Origin: an uncultured Caulobacterales bacterium
GTDB taxonomy: Bacteria; Pseudomonadota; Alphaproteobacteria; Caulobacterales; Maricaulaceae
NCBI GenBank assembly: GCA_937927825.1
Contig: CALFWV010000143.1
Location: forward strand, 1-35,855
DNA: 35,855 nucleotides
Direction of reading: 5' to 3'
The first letter of the stretch is position 1, and each line of letters starts with the position of its first letter. Shown here one piece after another: positions 15,271 through 22,481 of the stretch. The notes under the pieces are model-generated. The model made no database searches. It was given only the letters and a program-made list of their open reading frames with translations, and was not told the origin of the DNA. The position numbers and the translations under genes are program-made.

Positions 15271-15347
15271 GGTGGGGTAGCTCAGCTGGTTAGAGCGCAG
15301 GACTCATAATCCTGAGGTCGAGAGTTCAAGTCTCTCTCCCACTACCA
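15271..15347 (+). tRNA. tRNA with anticodon CAT, probably elongator tRNA-Met
   Basis: A complete cloverleaf can be drawn: acceptor GGTGGGG (15271-15277) with TCCCACT (15337-15343), D arm 15280-15296, anticodon stem CAGGA/TCCTG (15298-15302 with 15310-15314), anticodon CAT at 15305-15307, and a perfect T stem GAGAG/CTCTC around TTCAAGT. A discriminator A and encoded CCA end at 15347. The D loop and acceptor style, with G1-U72, resemble alphaproteobacterial elongator tRNA-Met. A lysidine-modified tRNA-Ile2 also reads as CAT and cannot be fully excluded. It is not an initiator, since position 72 does not form the initiator mismatch and the anticodon stem lacks three G-C pairs. Confidence 0.93.
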
Positions 15348-15414: not shown

Positions 15415-16389
15415 TCAAATAATGCCTAAATAGGGTGTGATCCGTTGGAAAACCCAAAACATCGCGACGGTCGCGATCGCATAGACGCTCACAGTCTCCG
15501 CCGTTTTGCGCCAGTCCGGCCCCAGTTTCATTAATCCCCAAAGCGCAGCCAATGCGGCGGCAATGACAGCAAATTGGCCCAATTCAACGCCGACATTGAA
15601 TAAGAGCAGCGCCATTAATTCCGTCCCTTGCGGCAATCCGATGTCTGCCAAGGCACCGGCAAAACCAAAGCCGTGGATGAGTCCGACAACAAAGGCGATG
15701 AGATAGGGCCGCCTTGCCCCGAGGGTCGGTTTTCCCGCACGCTTTCGCAAAATCTCCACACCCAGCAAAATAATAGACCCGGCGATTAAAATTTCGACGG
15801 GGCGAGACGGTAAGGTGAGTCCGCCCAATGCTGTCGCCGCCAAAGTAATAGAGTGGGCCAGCGTGAAGGCTGTGGCCACGCCCCACACCCGCCGTCCACC
15901 GACAAGCAAAGTCAATCCAATCACAAACAGCAAGTGGTCCCATCCGAATAAGATATGTTCTACCCCGATGCCGATATAGGCTTTGGCCGGGCTGGTTTTT
16001 GGCCCTGCCAAGCCAAGCGTGGGATAAGCAGGTTTTAACAGGGCTGTTCGGGCGGTACCGTCCAGATAGGTAATCTCAACAAAAGCATCCGTCAGCGTGT
16101 TTTCCAAACCCGGTAGAGAAACGGCGCCTTGACGCAAATCGCATGTAAGTGTGAACCGTTCTGCAACAGTATCTCCACTGCGGTCTAAGCGCGGCTCGGT
16201 CTGTGTGCAGTCGTCCGGAAAAGCCGGTCGAATGCGGAGGCGCTGCCCGGACAAGACAGGTTGTTTCCAAACAATATCGAATTCTCCCGCCGCAGTCTCA
16301 GTTGCGCGCAGAAATGCCGGCCGGACTTCATGAGCGAAGCTGGTCGCTGCTGCGCACCAAAGACAAAGTGCGAGGAGGAGGCGTATCAC
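15415..16389 (-). CDS. HupE/UreJ-family integral membrane protein with exported N-terminal domain
   Basis: The 324-residue protein starts with a signal peptide (RLLLALCLWCAAATSFAH). An extracytoplasmic domain of about 110 residues with two Cys (61, 83) follows, then about six transmembrane helices in the C-terminal half. The membrane part carries the family signatures HILFGWDHLLF (His145, Asp151, His152), AHSITL (His179) and GLIHGFGFAGAL (His239). Classical HupE/UreJ proteins are nickel permeases tied to hydrogenase or urease, but neither enzyme is encoded here and the substrate is unknown. The start is GTG and overlaps the stop of the upstream isomerase gene (GTGA). It is the last gene of a three-gene operon with DUF3604 and the isomerase. 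Confidence 0.88.
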   Translation of the reverse strand: MIRLLLALCLWCAAATSFAHEVRPAFLRATETAAGEFDIVWKQPVLSGQRLRIRPAFPDDCTQTEPRLDRSGDTVAERFTLTCDLRQGAVSLPGLENTLTDAFVEITYLDGTARTALLKPAYPTLGLAGPKTSPAKAYIGIGVEHILFGWDHLLFVIGLTLLVGGRRVWGVATAFTLAHSITLAATALGGLTLPSRPVEILIAGSIILLGVEILRKRAGKPTLGARRPYLIAFVVGLIHGFGFAGALADIGLPQGTELMALLLFNVGVELGQFAVIAAALAALWGLMKLGPDWRKTAETVSVYAIATVAMFWVFQRITPYLGII

Positions 16390-17210
16390 TCCGTAACCTC
16401 AACGCGGTATGTCGCGATCAAGTCTTTCAATGCCCGGCTATTCTCAACCCGTTTGGCTTCGTCCAGCCAGACCGTTTCAACCTCGATTTGAATCTCTGCG
16501 AAATCAGGTAAATACTCGGCTGAAATATCAGTCAGCCTGATAAGGTGAACGCCAAAGGCGGAATTTACGGGGCCTTGCCAGTCGGGACTATCGGGCAAGG
16601 CAAACAGCGCAGTGGCAAAGGCGGTCCCAAAATCGCGCTGAACAGCGGGTTGCGCCAATCTTGTAAAACTCAGCCCCGCCATGAAAGGGTCGCTGCTGGA
16701 TTTCCAGTCCTCTTCAATTCCCGTCTTTGACAGCAGGGTTTTTGCGTCGGCAACAACCGTATCGGACCGCCCTTTTGGAGACAGGTAAATATGCTCAAAA
16801 CTGCGGGTTTCAGGTCTAATAAATCGGGTCGGATTATTTTCAAACCACGTTTTTAACTGTTCACGCGGCGGCAATTCAGGCGCCCCCAAGTCGTCAATCA
16901 TAAACCGCATTTTCTGCGCGAGCCTACGTCGGATGATTGTGTCATCCTCGTCGAGCCCTAAGCGCTTTGCTTCGCGCATTAAAACCTGTTCTTCGATATG
17001 CGCAAAGAGCAGTCCTTCCAAATCGGCATCCGTTGGCGGGCGTTTATTCTCACTCGCAAAAATCTGGGCTTGCCGCTCCATTTCCGCGGGGCTGACCGAG
17101 ATGGTGCGGTCTTGTTTTGAAACGTGGTTTTGCCAAACGGTATGACACGCAAATAACAATCCACCCAACAGGACAAAATGAACGAAAGGCTCGCGCAATA
17201 AGTATTTCAT
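16386..17210 (-). CDS. membrane-anchored peptidyl-prolyl isomerase, parvulin/PpiC type
   Basis: The 274-residue protein has an N-terminal membrane anchor (about residues 9-25, FVHFVLLGGLLFACHTVW) and a helical SurA-like N domain (about 35-125). A C-terminal parvulin-type region follows (about 135-240), with FEHIYLS and the closing FGVHLIRL motif. The GGxLGW stretch of active parvulins is replaced by a diverged sequence around RLAQPAVQRDFG, so catalytic activity is uncertain and a chaperone role is possible. The protein would act at the periplasmic face. Its ATG directly follows the DUF3604 stop, and its TGA overlaps the GTG of the HupE-like gene. The coupling suggests it serves one or both neighbours. 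Confidence 0.85.
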   Translation of the reverse strand: MKYLLREPFVHFVLLGGLLFACHTVWQNHVSKQDRTISVSPAEMERQAQIFASENKRPPTDADLEGLLFAHIEEQVLMREAKRLGLDEDDTIIRRRLAQKMRFMIDDLGAPELPPREQLKTWFENNPTRFIRPETRSFEHIYLSPKGRSDTVVADAKTLLSKTGIEEDWKSSSDPFMAGLSFTRLAQPAVQRDFGTAFATALFALPDSPDWQGPVNSAFGVHLIRLTDISAEYLPDFAEIQIEVETVWLDEAKRVENSRALKDLIATYRVEVTE

Positions 17211-19124
17211 TTAGTTCGACGCTGTCCAAATCGGCGACGACCAAGCGCGCTCTTTAATCGTGGTGGGGAGGTCCGGATGAAATTCGGTGCCGGCTTTCAA
17301 AGCGTCCCAGGTTGACCAACGGCAAGTTGGATTTTCGAGTACGCGCACATAATAGGCTGCGCTTTCGCCCGCCGTGTAATCCGGGTCCGTCCACACCGCC
17401 TTTAACTCCGGGTCGCCTTGTCCGGTTGAGGGGGAGCAATCTTTCAAATCCACAGTTGCGCCATTCTCCGGACAGCGGTTCGTCACGGCATCCGGACTGG
17501 CGCCGTCCGAACAGGCCATATCGTAGACGGCTTCTTTCGGGCCGTCTGCGGTGTTCCAGGATTTTATGATTTGCAATCGGTCCAATTGTGCGCCGCGCGG
17601 GTCGCGTGCGGCCCAAGCCATGAAAGTTGGCGCAACATCCGTCGATAAATTGCCGCCCATAGGGACGCCCGCGCTATAACCTTGTGCGGCCATATCGGCA
17701 GCATTCAACATATCAGAGGTCATATCGCCGCCAAAAAACCGCAAGCGAATACGCGGACCGGAGGTGGCGTAGGTTTCTTTTTGGCGCATGCCGTTGAAAA
17801 TTGACTCGCGCGTATTTTCTTCGGCCCAAACCGCTGCATATCCTGCCGCGCTCCATTTTGAAAACCAGTTTTCCGCATTTTCATCGCGTTCGACGCCTTC
17901 CCAAGCCTTTGCACCGCCCGGCGGGACCGAGCCGCGTTGCGCGGCAGCGCCGTCCACAACCCCGACTTTTGACCAATAGTCATTTTCGTCATAAGCCCCA
18001 CCCGCAACATGGCTGTCGGAGCTGCCGATAAGACCAAAAGCATAGGGGTTCGTTCCGGTCGCTTCTTCCAACGCCAACCCGCGCGCGAGCGCTTCGCGAA
18101 TGTAGGACCCATTGATTTTGCTCTCGATGTTAGAGGCCAGCAATTTATCGTAAATTTCAAATCCTGCAAATTCGTCATTTGGTGAAAGAGCCGGATGGGT
18201 TTCGGACGTGCCTTTGACTTGGGACATTTCCACAACGGGCTCATTCCGGAGTCGCTGGCGGGTATAGTCTGCGTCTATGACCCCGCCGCCATATTGCACC
18301 AAATCAAACATCTTTCCGTCCGACACGTTAGAATTATGCGGAATGGCAATCACGTCGCGTCCAGCTTTTCGCTCGTCATCCATCCAGTCCCAGAGATCTT
18401 CCGGGTTTGGCGATTCTAAAACGCTATGAAGCCGCCCCGGTGCGGCGTCTTTGAAAACAACATTCCGGTGCAAGTTTCCACCCGCGAAGGACCCGGGACT
18501 ATCCGCCCGCGTCGTGACCGCCGTGAATTCATACGCGGCAAATGTTGTCAAAGTCCCGGGCTTATAATACCGATCCGCGGTCGCCACAGCGTCTTGCCAG
18601 GTTCTGTCAACGAGGTCGCGATCATAAAGGCCGTCAATGGGCTGTCCGCTTCTGACGGATTGTCCGATGGTTTGGAAATTCCGGATGATGGCATCCGGAT
18701 CATTGGCGCCAAAAATCTTTTTAGAGATTTCGAGATCTGACAGTGGGCTGTCAGGATTATCCATCGCGGGTAAAATGCCCATATAGGCGCCGTGATCCGT
18801 CGCGGCGACGAAATCCAAGGGCGGGCCGGCCAAGGTCATTTCAAACCCGGCGGGATGTTTTAGGGTTTCGCCCGAAGCGAAACGGTAAACATCGGCGGGC
18901 GTCGTGCGGACATTGAAAATATAAGCATCAAAGCTGTTTTTCGTGTGAATGTGTAAGTCGCCAAAATAGACATTCTTGCTGGCGTTAAATCCCGCTGTTT
19001 TTTCCGACGTGGGTTGCGTTGTTGCTTTCGGGCTGATGCTTGGCGCTTCGAGGGACGTGTCTCCGCAAGCCGCCAGCAAAACAAATATGGCCGATCCGGC
19101 CAACCATTTTGTGTTCATCTTCAT
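17211..19124 (-). CDS. DUF3604 family lipoprotein, PHP-like metal-dependent hydrolase candidate
   Basis: The 637-residue protein begins with a lipoprotein signal (LAGSAIFVLLAAC, Cys20). A region matching DUF3604 follows. Its metal-ligand pattern resembles the PHP phosphoesterase superfamily: GDLHIHT (His58, His60), ATDHGAYMG (Asp110, His111), AAYEFTA (Glu199), NLHRNV (His219), AIPHNSN (His263) and GSSDSHVAG (Asp370, His372). This supports a multi-metal active site, but no substrate is established for the family. It is exported and lipid-anchored. It is the first gene of a tightly coupled operon with the isomerase and HupE-like genes. C-terminal Cys residues (for example CSDGASP, CPENG, CRWS) may form disulfides. 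Confidence 0.87.
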   Translation of the reverse strand: MKMNTKWLAGSAIFVLLAACGDTSLEAPSISPKATTQPTSEKTAGFNASKNVYFGDLHIHTKNSFDAYIFNVRTTPADVYRFASGETLKHPAGFEMTLAGPPLDFVAATDHGAYMGILPAMDNPDSPLSDLEISKKIFGANDPDAIIRNFQTIGQSVRSGQPIDGLYDRDLVDRTWQDAVATADRYYKPGTLTTFAAYEFTAVTTRADSPGSFAGGNLHRNVVFKDAAPGRLHSVLESPNPEDLWDWMDDERKAGRDVIAIPHNSNVSDGKMFDLVQYGGGVIDADYTRQRLRNEPVVEMSQVKGTSETHPALSPNDEFAGFEIYDKLLASNIESKINGSYIREALARGLALEEATGTNPYAFGLIGSSDSHVAGGAYDENDYWSKVGVVDGAAAQRGSVPPGGAKAWEGVERDENAENWFSKWSAAGYAAVWAEENTRESIFNGMRQKETYATSGPRIRLRFFGGDMTSDMLNAADMAAQGYSAGVPMGGNLSTDVAPTFMAWAARDPRGAQLDRLQIIKSWNTADGPKEAVYDMACSDGASPDAVTNRCPENGATVDLKDCSPSTGQGDPELKAVWTDPDYTAGESAAYYVRVLENPTCRWSTWDALKAGTEFHPDLPTTIKERAWSSPIWTASN

Positions 19125-19274: not shown

Positions 19275-19706
19275 ATGGCTTTGCTAGAACTTATCTACAC
19301 CAGCTTCGCGGAAGCGCAAAATGATACGGATGACGTTCAAAACATCCTGGCTTCATCTGAACGAAATAACGTCGCGTCGAACATAACCGGATTATTGTTA
19401 TTTGACGGCGCACGTTATATTCAAATCCTGGAAGGTGAGAGCCAAGATGTCGAGCGTTTGTTTATGACAATCAGCAAGGACCCTCGCCATCACAGTCTTG
19501 AGCTTCTCCATAAAGGCCCAATTTTAGAACGGTCTTTTGAAACTTGGCGTATGGCCTACGAGGCTTTGCCGAAAGGTCTCTTGAGCGACCTCGCCGAGAA
19601 TATGGCTGTTTATTCTCTAGAGCAGGATGGAGAGCCGCTCGGCGTTGACGAAAGTTTTGGGGCCAAGCTCAATGGGATGTTCATGGATGCGATTGCGGCC
19701 GAATAG
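19275..19706 (+). CDS. BLUF-domain blue-light photoreceptor
   Basis: The 143-residue protein is a short, stand-alone BLUF sensor that binds FAD. All residues central to the AppA photocycle are present in register (AppA number minus 13): Tyr8 (Y21), Asn32 (N45), Gln50 (Q63, in YIQILEG), Trp91 (W104) and Met93 (M106). The NITGLLLF and DPRHH motifs are also typical. There is no output domain; about 40 residues after the core form the usual capping helices, so signalling must be by protein contact. TAGGAGC lies 7-8 bases before the ATG. The gene converges on regBA and is divergent from the DUF3604 operon. No photosynthesis genes are visible. Confidence 0.95.
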   Translation: MALLELIYTSFAEAQNDTDDVQNILASSERNNVASNITGLLLFDGARYIQILEGESQDVERLFMTISKDPRHHSLELLHKGPILERSFETWRMAYEALPKGLLSDLAENMAVYSLEQDGEPLGVDESFGAKLNGMFMDAIAAE

Positions 19707-19801: not shown

Positions 19802-20350
19802 TTATTTCGGCGCTCGTTTCGCGAGAATACGTTGCAACGTCCGGCGGTGCATATTCAACCGACGCGCCGTTTCGGACACATTTTTCCCGCAAAGCTCATA
19901 GACACGCTGGATATGCTCCCATCTGACACGGTCTGCGCTCATCGGGTTCTCGGGCGGCTCGGGCGCGGCATCACGTTGCGCGAGCAAGGCTTTACAAACG
20001 TCATCGGCATCGGCCGGTTTCGCGAGATAATCGACCGCGCCGCGTTTGACGGCGGACACAGCGGTCGCGAGATTGCCGTAACCCGTCAACATCACCATTT
20101 TTGAATCGGGCCTCCGCTCGTGCAGCAAATCGATTACATCTAACCCGTTGCCGTCTTCCAGTCGCATGTCGAGCACGGCAAAAGCGGGGGGTTTGTTGCG
20201 AACGATAGACCGGGCTTCGGCCACAGTTTCTACCGCGTCTACAGTAAAACCTCGTTGCTCCATTGCGCGGCCCAAGCGGGTGCGGAACGGACCGTCGTCA
20301 TCCAAAATCATCAAAGATGCGTCGTTTGGTAGGGCGTATTCACTCATCAT
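19802..20350 (-). CDS. regA: redox response regulator RegA/ActR/PrrA
   Basis: RegA is the DNA-binding response regulator of the global redox system in alphaproteobacteria, controlling respiration, carbon/nitrogen fixation and, where present, photosynthesis genes. The 182-residue protein has a receiver domain (about 12-125) with phospho-acceptor Asp61 (FAVLDMRL), acidic pocket Asp17-19 and the conserved Lys in YLAKPAD. A proline linker (PEPPENP) leads to a Fis-type helix-turn-helix at the extreme C-terminus (NVSETARRLNMHRRTLQRIL), which is the RegA/PrrA layout. Two ATGs are adjacent; AAGGAG sits 4 bases before the first and 7 before the second, so the true start may be 20347. It lies 51 bp downstream of regB. 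Confidence 0.95.
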   Translation of the reverse strand: MMSEYALPNDASLMILDDDGPFRTRLGRAMEQRGFTVDAVETVAEARSIVRNKPPAFAVLDMRLEDGNGLDVIDLLHERRPDSKMVMLTGYGNLATAVSAVKRGAVDYLAKPADADDVCKALLAQRDAAPEPPENPMSADRVRWEHIQRVYELCGKNVSETARRLNMHRRTLQRILAKRAPK

Positions 20351-20401
20351 CAGACTCCTTATTCATGGTATTTACGCATGAACGGGCAGAAGGATGCTGT
20401 T

Positions 20402-21796
20402 TTAGAGTTCAGGGGCGACGGACAATCTGTCGCGGGGGAGAACGGCCATAATGCGGGCTCCGCCCAATGGGGATTGCAGATAGCGAACTTTGCCGCCGGT
20501 TTGTCGGATTAAACGCTCGGAAATAAAAAGGCCCAAGCCTAAACCGCCTGCGGTCTTGGCGCGTCGACGGGTACTTACATACGGCTGTCCCAATCGACTT
20601 TTTAACGCGGAATCAAAACCGACGCCGTCATCATCGATTAAAATTGTCACATCTTGGGCGTCCCAATGTGCGGAGAGCTCGACCCGTGTTGTCGCAAAGT
20701 CTACGCCGTTGTCGATATAATTTTTGAGGGCATAAAGCAGTTCAGGGCGACGTTTGAGAACGGGTTCGGCATTGTCCCCTGTGCAGCTGATAACGATGTC
20801 TTTGTCGCGGTTGATGAAAGGTTCAGCGGCTTCCTCCAAGAGGTCCTCAATCGATAGCGCATCATGGATAAGGTCGCCTTCATCGCCGCGTCGGGAGAGT
20901 TGTTCCAAAATATCGCGGCAGCGTTGCGCCTGGGACAGGATGAGCGCCGCATCTTCGCCTAGCGGCGTGTCCGGTTCGACTTCGCGGCTCATTTCTTTGG
21001 CAACGACTTGTATTGTCGCCAGCGGCGTTCCAAGCTCGTGTGCTGCCGCGGCCGCGAGGCCACCTAAGGCGCTCAGCTTTTGCTCATGTGCCAGCAATGC
21101 CTCGGCCGCCGCGAGCGCGTAAGCCATTTTTCGGCTCTCATGTGTGGACCGCCAGGCATAGAAAGAGGTGAAGCTCGCCCCGACCAAAATCGCCATCCAG
21201 ATTCCGAGTTTTAATACCAACGGAAGATCAAAACTTCCTGCGGGCGACCAAGGTAACGGGTGATGATAGAAGACGAGGCCAAAGGAAAGTGTCAACGCCA
21301 TGCTACCCAAGGCCAAAACAACCCATCGGGATAAAGTCGTTGCCGCCGTCACAACGGGCGCAAGGAACAGAATCGAAAACGGGTTCACAATGCCCCCGGT
21401 GAGCCAAAGCAGACCCGCTAATTGCCAGATATCGAACCCCAATTGCATATAGGCTTCGAAATCAGACACGCGGCGGTCCAATGGAAGTTTCAGCGTTACG
21501 ACGAGGTTGACGATGACAGAGGCAAGAACTGTTAATCCGCAAGCGAGCAAAGGATAGTCGAAGCCCAAAAACTGACTGACAACGACAAGGGCTAATATCT
21601 GGCCCAACACAGCGCCCCAGCGCAAAGCCACTAAAGTTTGGCGGCGTAATGAGCCCAGGCTTTCAACACGGTCATGACCCTGGGCTGACGCAAAACCGCC
21701 AAAACCCCGCAATGGGGTGTCAATAATCGTGCCCCGACTTGGACCGCCAATATTTTGTCCTGCGGCGTTATGCGCTTTCACATCCAGCTCTTTCAT
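20402..21796 (-). CDS. regB: redox sensor histidine kinase RegB/ActS/PrrB
   Basis: RegB is the inner-membrane kinase that phosphorylates RegA under low-oxygen or reduced conditions. The 464-residue chain has about six transmembrane segments (about 60-212), including the ubiquinone-binding motif GGIVNPF (134-140). The dimerisation/H-box has phospho-His253 in AAAHELGTPLATIQ. The redox-active Cys found in RegB homologues appears at Cys293 (QAQRCRDIL). An HATPase domain follows, with LKNYIDNGVDF, DDDGVGF and GGLGLGLFISERL. The roughly 45-residue N-terminal tail is Gly-rich. It heads the regB-regA operon, and only 46 bp separate it from the divergent SenC gene, so their promoters probably overlap. 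Confidence 0.95.
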   Translation of the reverse strand: MKELDVKAHNAAGQNIGGPSRGTIIDTPLRGFGGFASAQGHDRVESLGSLRRQTLVALRWGAVLGQILALVVVSQFLGFDYPLLACGLTVLASVIVNLVVTLKLPLDRRVSDFEAYMQLGFDIWQLAGLLWLTGGIVNPFSILFLAPVVTAATTLSRWVVLALGSMALTLSFGLVFYHHPLPWSPAGSFDLPLVLKLGIWMAILVGASFTSFYAWRSTHESRKMAYALAAAEALLAHEQKLSALGGLAAAAAHELGTPLATIQVVAKEMSREVEPDTPLGEDAALILSQAQRCRDILEQLSRRGDEGDLIHDALSIEDLLEEAAEPFINRDKDIVISCTGDNAEPVLKRRPELLYALKNYIDNGVDFATTRVELSAHWDAQDVTILIDDDGVGFDSALKSRLGQPYVSTRRRAKTAGGLGLGLFISERLIRQTGGKVRYLQSPLGGARIMAVLPRDRLSVAPEL

Positions 21797-21842
21797 TTAT
21801 AGGATTATATCACCCTATCACTTTTGAATTGAGCTTTGCAGT

Positions 21843-22481
21843 ATGAGAATTGCGACAAATTTGACGACAAGTCTCCTCGTTGGGATAGGCTTGTCAGCCT
21901 GTCAGCCTGCCGACCCTAATGAGGCGGGTGTATCCGGTCGAACGGTTGTCAGCTCCGGTACGGCTGCCATTGGCGGGGCGTTTACTTTGGTTGATGAAAC
22001 GGGCGCAACGGTCACTGAAGCGGATTTGCTCGGACAACCGCATCTGGTATATTTCGGCTTTGCTTATTGCCCCGATATTTGCCCGACCTCCTTGCAAAAG
22101 CTTGGGGCCGCGCAAACGCTTTTGGGGGATGCAGGCGATGACGTTGGTTACGTTTTAATTACAGTCGATCCCGAGCGGGACACGGTTGAAAAAATCGCGG
22201 AATATGTGACCTTCGAGCCCTTTCCGAAGGGTCTTCGCGGGTTCACGGGAACTGTCGAGCAGATTGAGACGGCCAAAGCTGCCTATAAAATCACGGCCAT
22301 GAAAACGACTTTTGACGGAGGCCCTGTTGCAGACGGCGCGACCGATTACACCGTCAACCATACGGACATCATCTATTTCATGGGCGCGGACGGGAAATTC
22401 GCTGACTTCTTTTCTGCCCGCTCCACACCGCAAGAAATTGCCATCCGTGTCCGCCAGGAACTCATGAAGTCTGAGAAATAG
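21843..22481 (+). CDS. senC: SCO1/SenC/PrrC-family copper lipoprotein
   Basis: SCO proteins deliver copper or manage thiol redox state for the CuA centre of cytochrome oxidase. In Rhodobacter the homologue (PrrC/SenC) is encoded beside RegBA and feeds into its signalling. The 212-residue product has a lipoprotein signal (LLVGIGLSAC, Cys20), a thioredoxin-like fold and the copper ligands FAYCPDICP (Cys76, Cys80) and NHTD (His173). It is divergent from regB across 46 bp. Its stop is 2 bp from the stop of the convergent cobalamin adenosyltransferase gene. It likely acts at the periplasmic face. Confidence 0.94.
   Translation: MRIATNLTTSLLVGIGLSACQPADPNEAGVSGRTVVSSGTAAIGGAFTLVDETGATVTEADLLGQPHLVYFGFAYCPDICPTSLQKLGAAQTLLGDAGDDVGYVLITVDPERDTVEKIAEYVTFEPFPKGLRGFTGTVEQIETAKAAYKITAMKTTFDGGPVADGATDYTVNHTDIIYFMGADGKFADFFSARSTPQEIAIRVRQELMKSEK

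Follow-up and report, generated by a model that had tools for sequence, protein, structure and literature searches.

Why would an exported lipoprotein of the DUF3604 family be encoded in one tightly coupled set with a membrane-anchored parvulin and a HupE_UreJ_2 permease? The question is raised by a 35,855-nt stretch of DNA from an uncultured member of the Caulobacterales (contig CALFWV010000143.1 of assembly GCA_937927825.1), the whole of which is here called the window. We find that the three genes form a conserved unit in the order, and we propose, tentatively and with a confidence that falls somewhat short of calling it probable, that HupE and the parvulin constitute a periplasmic metal-handling pair serving an exported metallohydrolase of the PHP type.

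Linkage of the three genes across genomes

A sample of 150 genomes of the order, the window's own included, was searched for DUF3604, HupE_UreJ_2 and the parvulin family (profile A3), and the positions of the matches were compared. Before linkage was counted, nine second frame pieces and four weak matches (G008, G102, G014:C9 and G087) were dropped from the HupE search, and nine second pieces from the DUF3604 search. Full-length DUF3604 is encoded by 51 genes in 34 of the 150 genomes; 38 of these genes, and 33 of the 34 genomes, have both HupE and a parvulin within 4.5 kb of DUF3604. An earlier interpretation of this locus, the sequence-only reading, had taken the trio for a unit, and this is borne out in the order, where DUF3604 is anything but seldom found beside the other two, though many DUF3604 genes elsewhere are solitary. 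In 30 sets from 29 genomes HupE follows DUF3604 on its strand, at the distance that one parvulin gene gives in the window; in G036, G065, G085 and G129 the trio genes are linked in another arrangement. Seen from the partners, a HupE gene lies on the same strand and no more than 1.5 kb away for 45 of the 46 parvulin matches above 80 bits. A parvulin is linked to 45 of the 102 HupE matches retained, and DUF3604 or a distant relative stands within 4.5 kb of 43 of those 45. It is this linkage that constitutes the evidence, since the mere presence of some HupE_UreJ_2 in the same genome (76 of 150) says little. A chance neighbourhood of three genes can be rejected, as their association in the sample is far above chance. 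The window's genome is 92% complete, and many of the others are incomplete metagenome-assembled or single-amplified genomes.

In a sample of 200 genomes of the phylum, again with the window's own, DUF3604 is matched in 13, in 12 of them above the cut-off, and in each of the nine genomes with a full-length gene (>600 bits) one copy or more has HupE no farther than 4.5 kb away. A divergent copy occurs in G311, a genome without any HupE match. Farther afield we compared named loci, which are the best 80 of at least 576 confirmed DUF3604 matches and not a random sample. By their record titles they come from Alpha- and Gammaproteobacteria (Hyphomonas, Hellea, Phenylobacterium, Steroidobacter and SAR86 among them), Deltaproteobacteria and Acidobacteria-type metagenome-assembled genomes. 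DUF3604 and HupE lie within 3 kb of each other in 31 of the 80, and all 31 have a parvulin match as well. Some HupE_UreJ_2 gene is also present in 42 of the 43 genomes that hold trio-less DUF3604 loci, against the 76 of 150 in the order; the former count takes any class of HupE_UreJ_2, and in L162 and L166 the HupE gene sits inside the fetched locus.

On a tree of 113 DUF3604 proteins the state of being in a trio changes 13 times, compared with at least 30 times in 500 shuffles: trio membership is inherited, yet it has been gained and lost. A search of viral contigs found no relative. In one genome the beginning of DUF3604 and the last part of HupE are found in a single 333-aa frame (G222:C2:46141-46476), which a deletion within a trio seems to have left behind.

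Predicted metal sites, and the tie of the parvulin

What kind of enzyme would DUF3604 be? An AlphaFold2 model built from 36 sequences (pLDDT 86.9, pTM 0.89) predicts the fold of PHP metallohydrolases, followed by a C-terminal beta domain. Plain Foldseek of the model against the PDB brought up no structure with E 0.001 or lower; VIA-align, run on its candidates, showed the PHP fold, with 3e38_A (Z 15.5, 228 residues, 3.6 Å), 2anu_A (Z 15.2, 212 residues, 3.4 Å) and PsfC (7rty_A, Z 11.8), the first unrelated row standing at Z 4.2. Searched against PDB sequences, the DUF3604 profile found nothing. In the general scheme of PHP enzymes the metal ligands follow the series HxH, DH, E, H, H, DxH. Residues H58, H60, D66, D110, H111, E199, H219, H263, D370 and H372 of DUF3604 are identical in all 113 proteins and complete this series on the predicted fold, so that the PHP-like ligand set first noticed by eye stands; the constancy of H58 and H60 is partly a matter of selection, since both belonged to one search pattern, in which the other ligands had no part. 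DUF3604 scores 21.8 bits against the CehA/McbA family model (NF038032), for which the NCBIfam cut-off is 80, and a profile-profile comparison with three of six fetched sequences matches the two over 48 columns in the region of motifs I-II (prob 79, E 1.5e-5).

Two further traits vary within the family. Cysteines 538, 551, 563 and 601 are all present in 103 of the 113 proteins and all absent in nine, an all-or-none pattern as expected if they form disulfides; the sequence-only reading's description of the enzyme as disulfide-containing may therefore hold for the 103 and fails for the nine. The window's protein has the lipobox LLAAC with Cys20, as read from its sequence. Because a lipobox-like string occurs in 58 of the 113 proteins, a count that start-codon errors may lower, the lipid anchor is not universal.

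The permease carries its own putative metal site outside the membrane. The signal peptide of the window's HupE ends, as read from the sequence, between SFA and HEVRP(A), and the first residue after the predicted cleavage is His in 60 of 67 proteins, the window's included, and Asp in seven. It is the single His of the window's exported domain (residues 20-136), which has no His-rich loop of the ZrgA/PA4063 type; Cys61 and Cys83 of the domain are each conserved in at least 90% of 25 sequences. The model of the mature protein (pLDDT 92.1) consists of a beta domain and then a helical membrane domain. In a Foldseek search with this model the top match is ZrgA (8ezw_E, E 3.8e-4), and in third place stands Ang-1, a domain from a different HupE/UreJ-2 protein (9gce, prob 0.98, E 0.025); by VIA-align, ZrgA scores Z 10.1 and PA4063 Z 9.7, with unrelated rows from Z 7.4. 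We consider ZrgA and PA4063 to be firm fold matches of the modelled domain and Ang-1 a possible one. Judging from the aligned range, the N-terminal His of the window's HupE would occupy the end of the aligned region at which that of ZrgA is found.

In the membrane domain, H145, D151, H152, H179, E199 and H239 are invariant in both alignments (A2, 16 sequences; A5, 25 sequences), and H145-x5-D151-H152 agrees with H-x5-DH, the membrane motif of HupE-type nickel permeases. A likeness of this domain to the zinc transporter BbZIP (Z 7.0) falls within the background of helical proteins and was not used. The claim that the permease is metal-related is thus probably correct, with the predicted N-terminal His and the fold type of ZrgA, PA4063 and, possibly, Ang-1 as a stronger argument for it than the family name.

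And the parvulin, whom does it serve? It has an N-terminal membrane segment (judged by eye) and a PpiC-type domain at residues 114-240, and its family profile matches the CBF2, HP_0175, PrsA and SurA chains. Over 45 loci and the window, the tree distances of parvulin and HupE correlate with r 0.875, against a permutation maximum of 0.30 (1000 permutations), in a mirror-tree comparison that does not subtract the species tree. When HupEs are scored with a hidden Markov model of this class's exported domain, more than 50 bits are reached by 61 of the 73 that are linked to a parvulin (38 of 50 without the training rows), by all four for which DUF3604 but not a parvulin was counted nearby, and by 2 of the 32 that have neither partner. 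Taken together, these sequence comparisons suggest that the parvulin more likely helps the receptor domain of HupE than DUF3604 alone. It may serve DUF3604 too, as is argued by two loci, L119 and L140, which hold DUF3604 and a parvulin without an adjacent HupE. The idea that the isomerase helps the metalloenzyme, as originally put forward, keeps its ground in these two loci and loses some to the tighter tie with the permease and to the pairs without DUF3604 described below. A parvulin-HupE fusion in L234 (636 aa) was considered and rejected, since the parvulin profile finds no match in it and the excess length seems to come from a reading frame drawn too long.

Metal for the enzyme, or another cargo

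How might the three proteins work together? In the reading that we prefer, the exported domain of HupE would bind a transition metal ion through its free N-terminal His (or Asp) and swap it with the His/Asp site of the membrane domain. The membrane parvulin would fold or hold the HupE receptor domain, and perhaps the enzyme too, and the pair, made from one operon, would keep the metal site of DUF3604 filled or secure the metal that the enzyme needs. Co-transcription of the genes, a metal as the cargo, its delivery to the enzyme and the identity of the parvulin's client are all points that we infer.

Several observations weigh against this proposal. Its weakest step is the direction of transport: the enzyme is exported, and known HupE proteins are held to import into the cytoplasm. 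Thirteen of the 51 DUF3604 genes of the order have no linked HupE (some lie at contig ends), the family is multi-copy, and DUF3604 stands alone in 58 of the 113 proteins; since it is so often solitary, it does not need the adjacent pair. Its tree distances correlate at 0.545 with those of HupE and 0.473 with those of the parvulin. Among 23 parvulin-HupE pairs without DUF3604 within 4.5 kb, 15 have no metal- or cofactor-type neighbour; two pairs adjoin an AbgT transporter and one, in L162, a biotin-dependent carboxylase, and the others of these 15 show no clear partner. Ang-1, aligned from residue 1 of both proteins, reaches Z 7.9 by VIA-align, barely over the first unrelated row (7.4), and a sequence search of the PDB with the HupE profile gave no match, Ang-1 included. 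Upstream of 42 operons there is no enrichment of sites like those of Zur, NikR, Fur or Irr, though the test by consensus strings is a weak one, and a riboswitch search matched nothing but the tRNA.

The doubt over direction leads to an alternative in which metal is scavenged for the cytoplasm. In the periplasm DUF3604 would split an organic ligand (for example a phospho- or carboxyl-ester) and free its metal, the exported domain would catch the metal, HupE would import it, and the parvulin would fold the receptor domain. We regard this as rather unlikely, with some precedent in its favour: HupE is known as a nickel importer, Ang-1 and Ang-2 have been proposed to feed uptake (PMC12537917), and ZrgA serves import as a zinc receptor (PMC9820375). 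TonB-receptor-like genes, judged by eye, also stand near 8 of 31 trio loci and near 3 of 49 others. The usual nickel consumers, however, are mostly absent. Among 32 trio genomes urease is matched strongly in nine (17 match at E 0.001, the rest of them weakly) and [NiFe] hydrogenase strongly in one, with two more weak. In the window's own genome, 92% complete, no match to either enzyme was found, which extends to the genome an absence that had been noted near the trio. Nickel supply for urease or hydrogenase is rejected as the general role, given that strong matches are rare among the 32 genomes and lacking in the window's own; other nickel enzymes were not searched, and the argument speaks to nickel only. 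The missing regulator sites upstream of the 42 operons count against scavenging as well.

The 23 pairs without DUF3604 bear on what the pair does by itself. They stem from chosen HupE genes, and proportions among them are no estimates: 40 stretches, mostly with long reading frames, in genomes already known to hold DUF3604, 20 stretches around unlinked HupE matches, of which the order sample has 59, and two named loci. Metal- or cofactor-type proteins stand near eight of the 23, a point in favour of the reading that we prefer. Five pairs adjoin a TIGR03806 diheme cytochrome c (by match to a family representative), four of these with a NosD-like TIGR03805 beta-helix protein as well; one adjoins an arginase-family protein; and single pairs have a PQQ-type protein near (L166) or a copper-monooxygenase-like protein 592 bp away (L222). 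Among the neighbours, export was assessed, by eye, only for the cytochrome, arginase-family and beta-helix proteins.

Two of these contexts may be described further. In L083 (2088-5500) an arginase/agmatinase-family gene lies 14 bp after parvulin-HupE, and its N-terminal extension looks like a signal sequence. In L227 (4025-8312), L237 (4026-8258), L224 and L228, parvulin-HupE is followed by the beta-helix gene and the diheme cytochrome c gene, with acyl-CoA dehydrogenase and short-chain dehydrogenase/reductase (SDR) genes upstream in some of these loci; it is a second recurrent context without DUF3604.

Could HupE move something other than a metal? Operons that join an enzyme to a permease are common in nutrient use, and the cargo, imported or exported, might be a small non-metal product or substrate of the DUF3604 hydrolase, with the exported domain as its receptor. 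Catabolic-looking genes, judged by eye, are indeed frequent at trio-less loci, but it is mainly there that they occur: SDR genes in 11 of 49 trio-less loci and 1 of 31 trio loci, acyl-CoA dehydrogenase in 8 of 49 and 2 of 31, enoyl-CoA hydratase-like genes in 6 of 49 and 3 of 31. The pair is also found near unrelated proteins (arginase family, beta-helix/cytochrome c) that would hardly share a product, and H-x5-DH and the other membrane His/Asp residues are kept in HupE. Transport of a product seems to us distinctly improbable.

The same pairs might be read to mean that parvulin and HupE are a unit for general envelope metal homeostasis, and DUF3604 only a frequent neighbour. This would agree with a correlation of 0.875 within the pair, as against about 0.47 and 0.55 with DUF3604, and with the very existence of 23 pairs lacking the enzyme. 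It fits poorly with DUF3604 or a distant relative being near 43 of 45 parvulin-linked HupEs in the order, with trio association changing 13 times on the DUF3604 tree as against at least 30 in shuffles, and with DUF3604 beside a parvulin, HupE not adjacent, in L119 and L140; we find it very improbable.

It is tempting to go beyond our preferred reading, that of a pair serving the PHP enzyme, and to suppose that parvulin and His-tipped HupE form a general, transferable metallation module of the envelope for Sec-exported, unfolded proteins, attached to different exported enzymes, in which HupE hands metal over toward the periplasm and is not a nickel importer. This broader idea we hold to be unlikely. 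Its clients may be two kinds of PHP hydrolase, the arginase-family enzyme, the NosD-like/diheme cytochrome set and perhaps the copper monooxygenase.

The second kind of hydrolase belongs to a distant set, in which a DUF3604-like enzyme of ~760 aa is accompanied by a parvulin and a longer HupE. The example is L071 (2155-6497), with L072, L073 and L074 alongside, and the set, which also speaks for our preferred reading, looks like a second version of the same system. Nine PHP ligands (all but D66) are kept in all four of these relatives, as is the predicted N-terminal His in all four longer HupEs, and in the order sample 9 of 12 weak DUF3604 matches stand beside HupE and a parvulin. Short and long HupE frames occur together in five SAR86 genomes of 1.2-1.7 Mb (G157, G168, G171, G176 and G179), the long frame being counted without regard to its neighbours.

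The locus and its relatives among known systems

The three open reading frames and the two junctions between them are as originally described (Table 1). All three genes score above the gathering cut-offs of Pfam (20.4 bits for DUF3604, 27 for Rotamase_2, 24.5 for HupE_UreJ_2), and HupE also matches the Pfam family HupE_UreJ at 37.7 bits. Scans gave 4 promoter-like sequences compared with 3.0 in shuffles, and 11 terminator-like sequences compared with 6.2.

Table 1. Features of the trio locus, in coordinates of the window
Feature	Position	Strand	Evidence or remark
DUF3604 lipoprotein, 637 aa	17211-19124	-	Pfam PF12228, 679.2 bits over residues 48-634
Membrane-anchored parvulin, 274 aa	16386-17210	-	Rotamase_2 (PF13145), 50.5 bits
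HupE_UreJ_2 permease, 324 aa: signal peptide, exported domain, membrane domain	15415-16389	-	PF13795, 145.8 bits
Junction TAAATG, DUF3604 stop abutting parvulin ATG (17210)	17208-17213	-	Sequence
GTGA overlap, parvulin stop and HupE GTG start	16386-16389	-	Sequence
HupE exported domain, residues 20-136, starting HEVRPA after predicted cleavage	15982-16332	-	
HupE membrane domain with H145-x5-D151-H152, H179, E199, H239	15418-15981	-	Alignments
tRNA-Met	15271-15347		Downstream of trio

Upstream of the trio, and divergent from it, lies a gene for a BLUF-domain protein, a blue-light sensor (19275-19706, plus strand); L103 and L068 show the start of the same protein ahead of their DUF3604 genes, and light control of the trio operon in the window's group is possible. 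Beyond it, at 19802-22481, a response regulator with a Fis-type helix-turn-helix and a membrane histidine kinase, RegA/RegB-like as judged by eye, adjoin a SCO1/SenC gene. The window's genome holds a second DUF3604 gene (G000:C152:6772-8511) and a DUF3604 fragment (G000:C220:5830-5937), both at contig ends, where partners are only partly visible.

How does the trio compare with what has been described? A search of the open literature by family names found no description of it; subscription journals were mostly outside its scope, and an existing description cannot be excluded. In the same literature DUF3604 appeared in a single paper, as a table entry, HupE, UreJ and peptidyl-prolyl came together only in one paper on another subject, and the Pfam names or the word anglerase led to PMC12537917 only.

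Among known enzymes, DUF3604 resembles the PHP phosphoesterases (3e38, 2anu and PsfC, 7rty) and the CehA/McbA metallohydrolases in predicted fold and, by the general PHP scheme, in ligand order; unlike them it is exported and larger, with the C-terminal beta domain and long inserts. The HupE proteins of hydrogenase clusters, cited as nickel permeases in PMC12537917, share the HupE_UreJ family and the H-x5-DH motif with the window's permease, whereas the latter has an added exported domain and a parvulin partner, in a genome in which no hydrogenase or urease was found. The exported domain has its best structural matches in the periplasmic zinc-binding proteins ZrgA (Vibrio cholerae) and PA4063 (Pseudomonas aeruginosa). 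ZrgA is likewise endowed with an N-terminal His site and a conserved Cys pair, which forms a disulfide (PMC9820375). In contrast to both, the window's domain is fused to a HupE permease, does not serve an ABC transporter and is without the His-rich loop.

Comparable too are the recently named anglerases, in which Ang-1 or Ang-2 is fused to HupE/UreJ-2. According to section 8 of PMC12537917, Ang-1 binds copper (Kd 74 nM) and nickel (220 nM), with His1 as a copper ligand in the crystal structure, Ang-2 binds copper, and both are proposed as feeders of the HupE permease; metallophosphatases are named there as Ang-2 neighbours, and neither parvulin nor DUF3604 is named. The trio permease has the same layout of a signal peptide, an exported domain with a predicted N-terminal His and a HupE_UreJ_2 membrane domain, and Ang-1 (9gce) is a possible, though weak, match in structure, aligned from residue 1 of both proteins. 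It differs in that its exported domain is shorter and has a conserved Cys pair, that Asp replaces His1 in 7 of 67 members of its class, that a parvulin gene accompanies it and, in many cases, a PHP hydrolase gene as well, and that a sequence search of the PDB does not bring up Ang-1.

It is poorly understood by what route an enzyme acquires the right metal when it folds outside the cytoplasm. With an exported PHP hydrolase, a receptor-tipped HupE and a parvulin of its own, the trio offers a directly testable case of extracytoplasmic metallation, and through it the DUF3604 family gains a predicted fold, an active site and partners. Judged by sequence and models, the trio is an anglerase-like HupE of a parvulin-linked class together with a PHP hydrolase, and the anglerases would be extended by this class, which is present even in the small genomes of SAR86.

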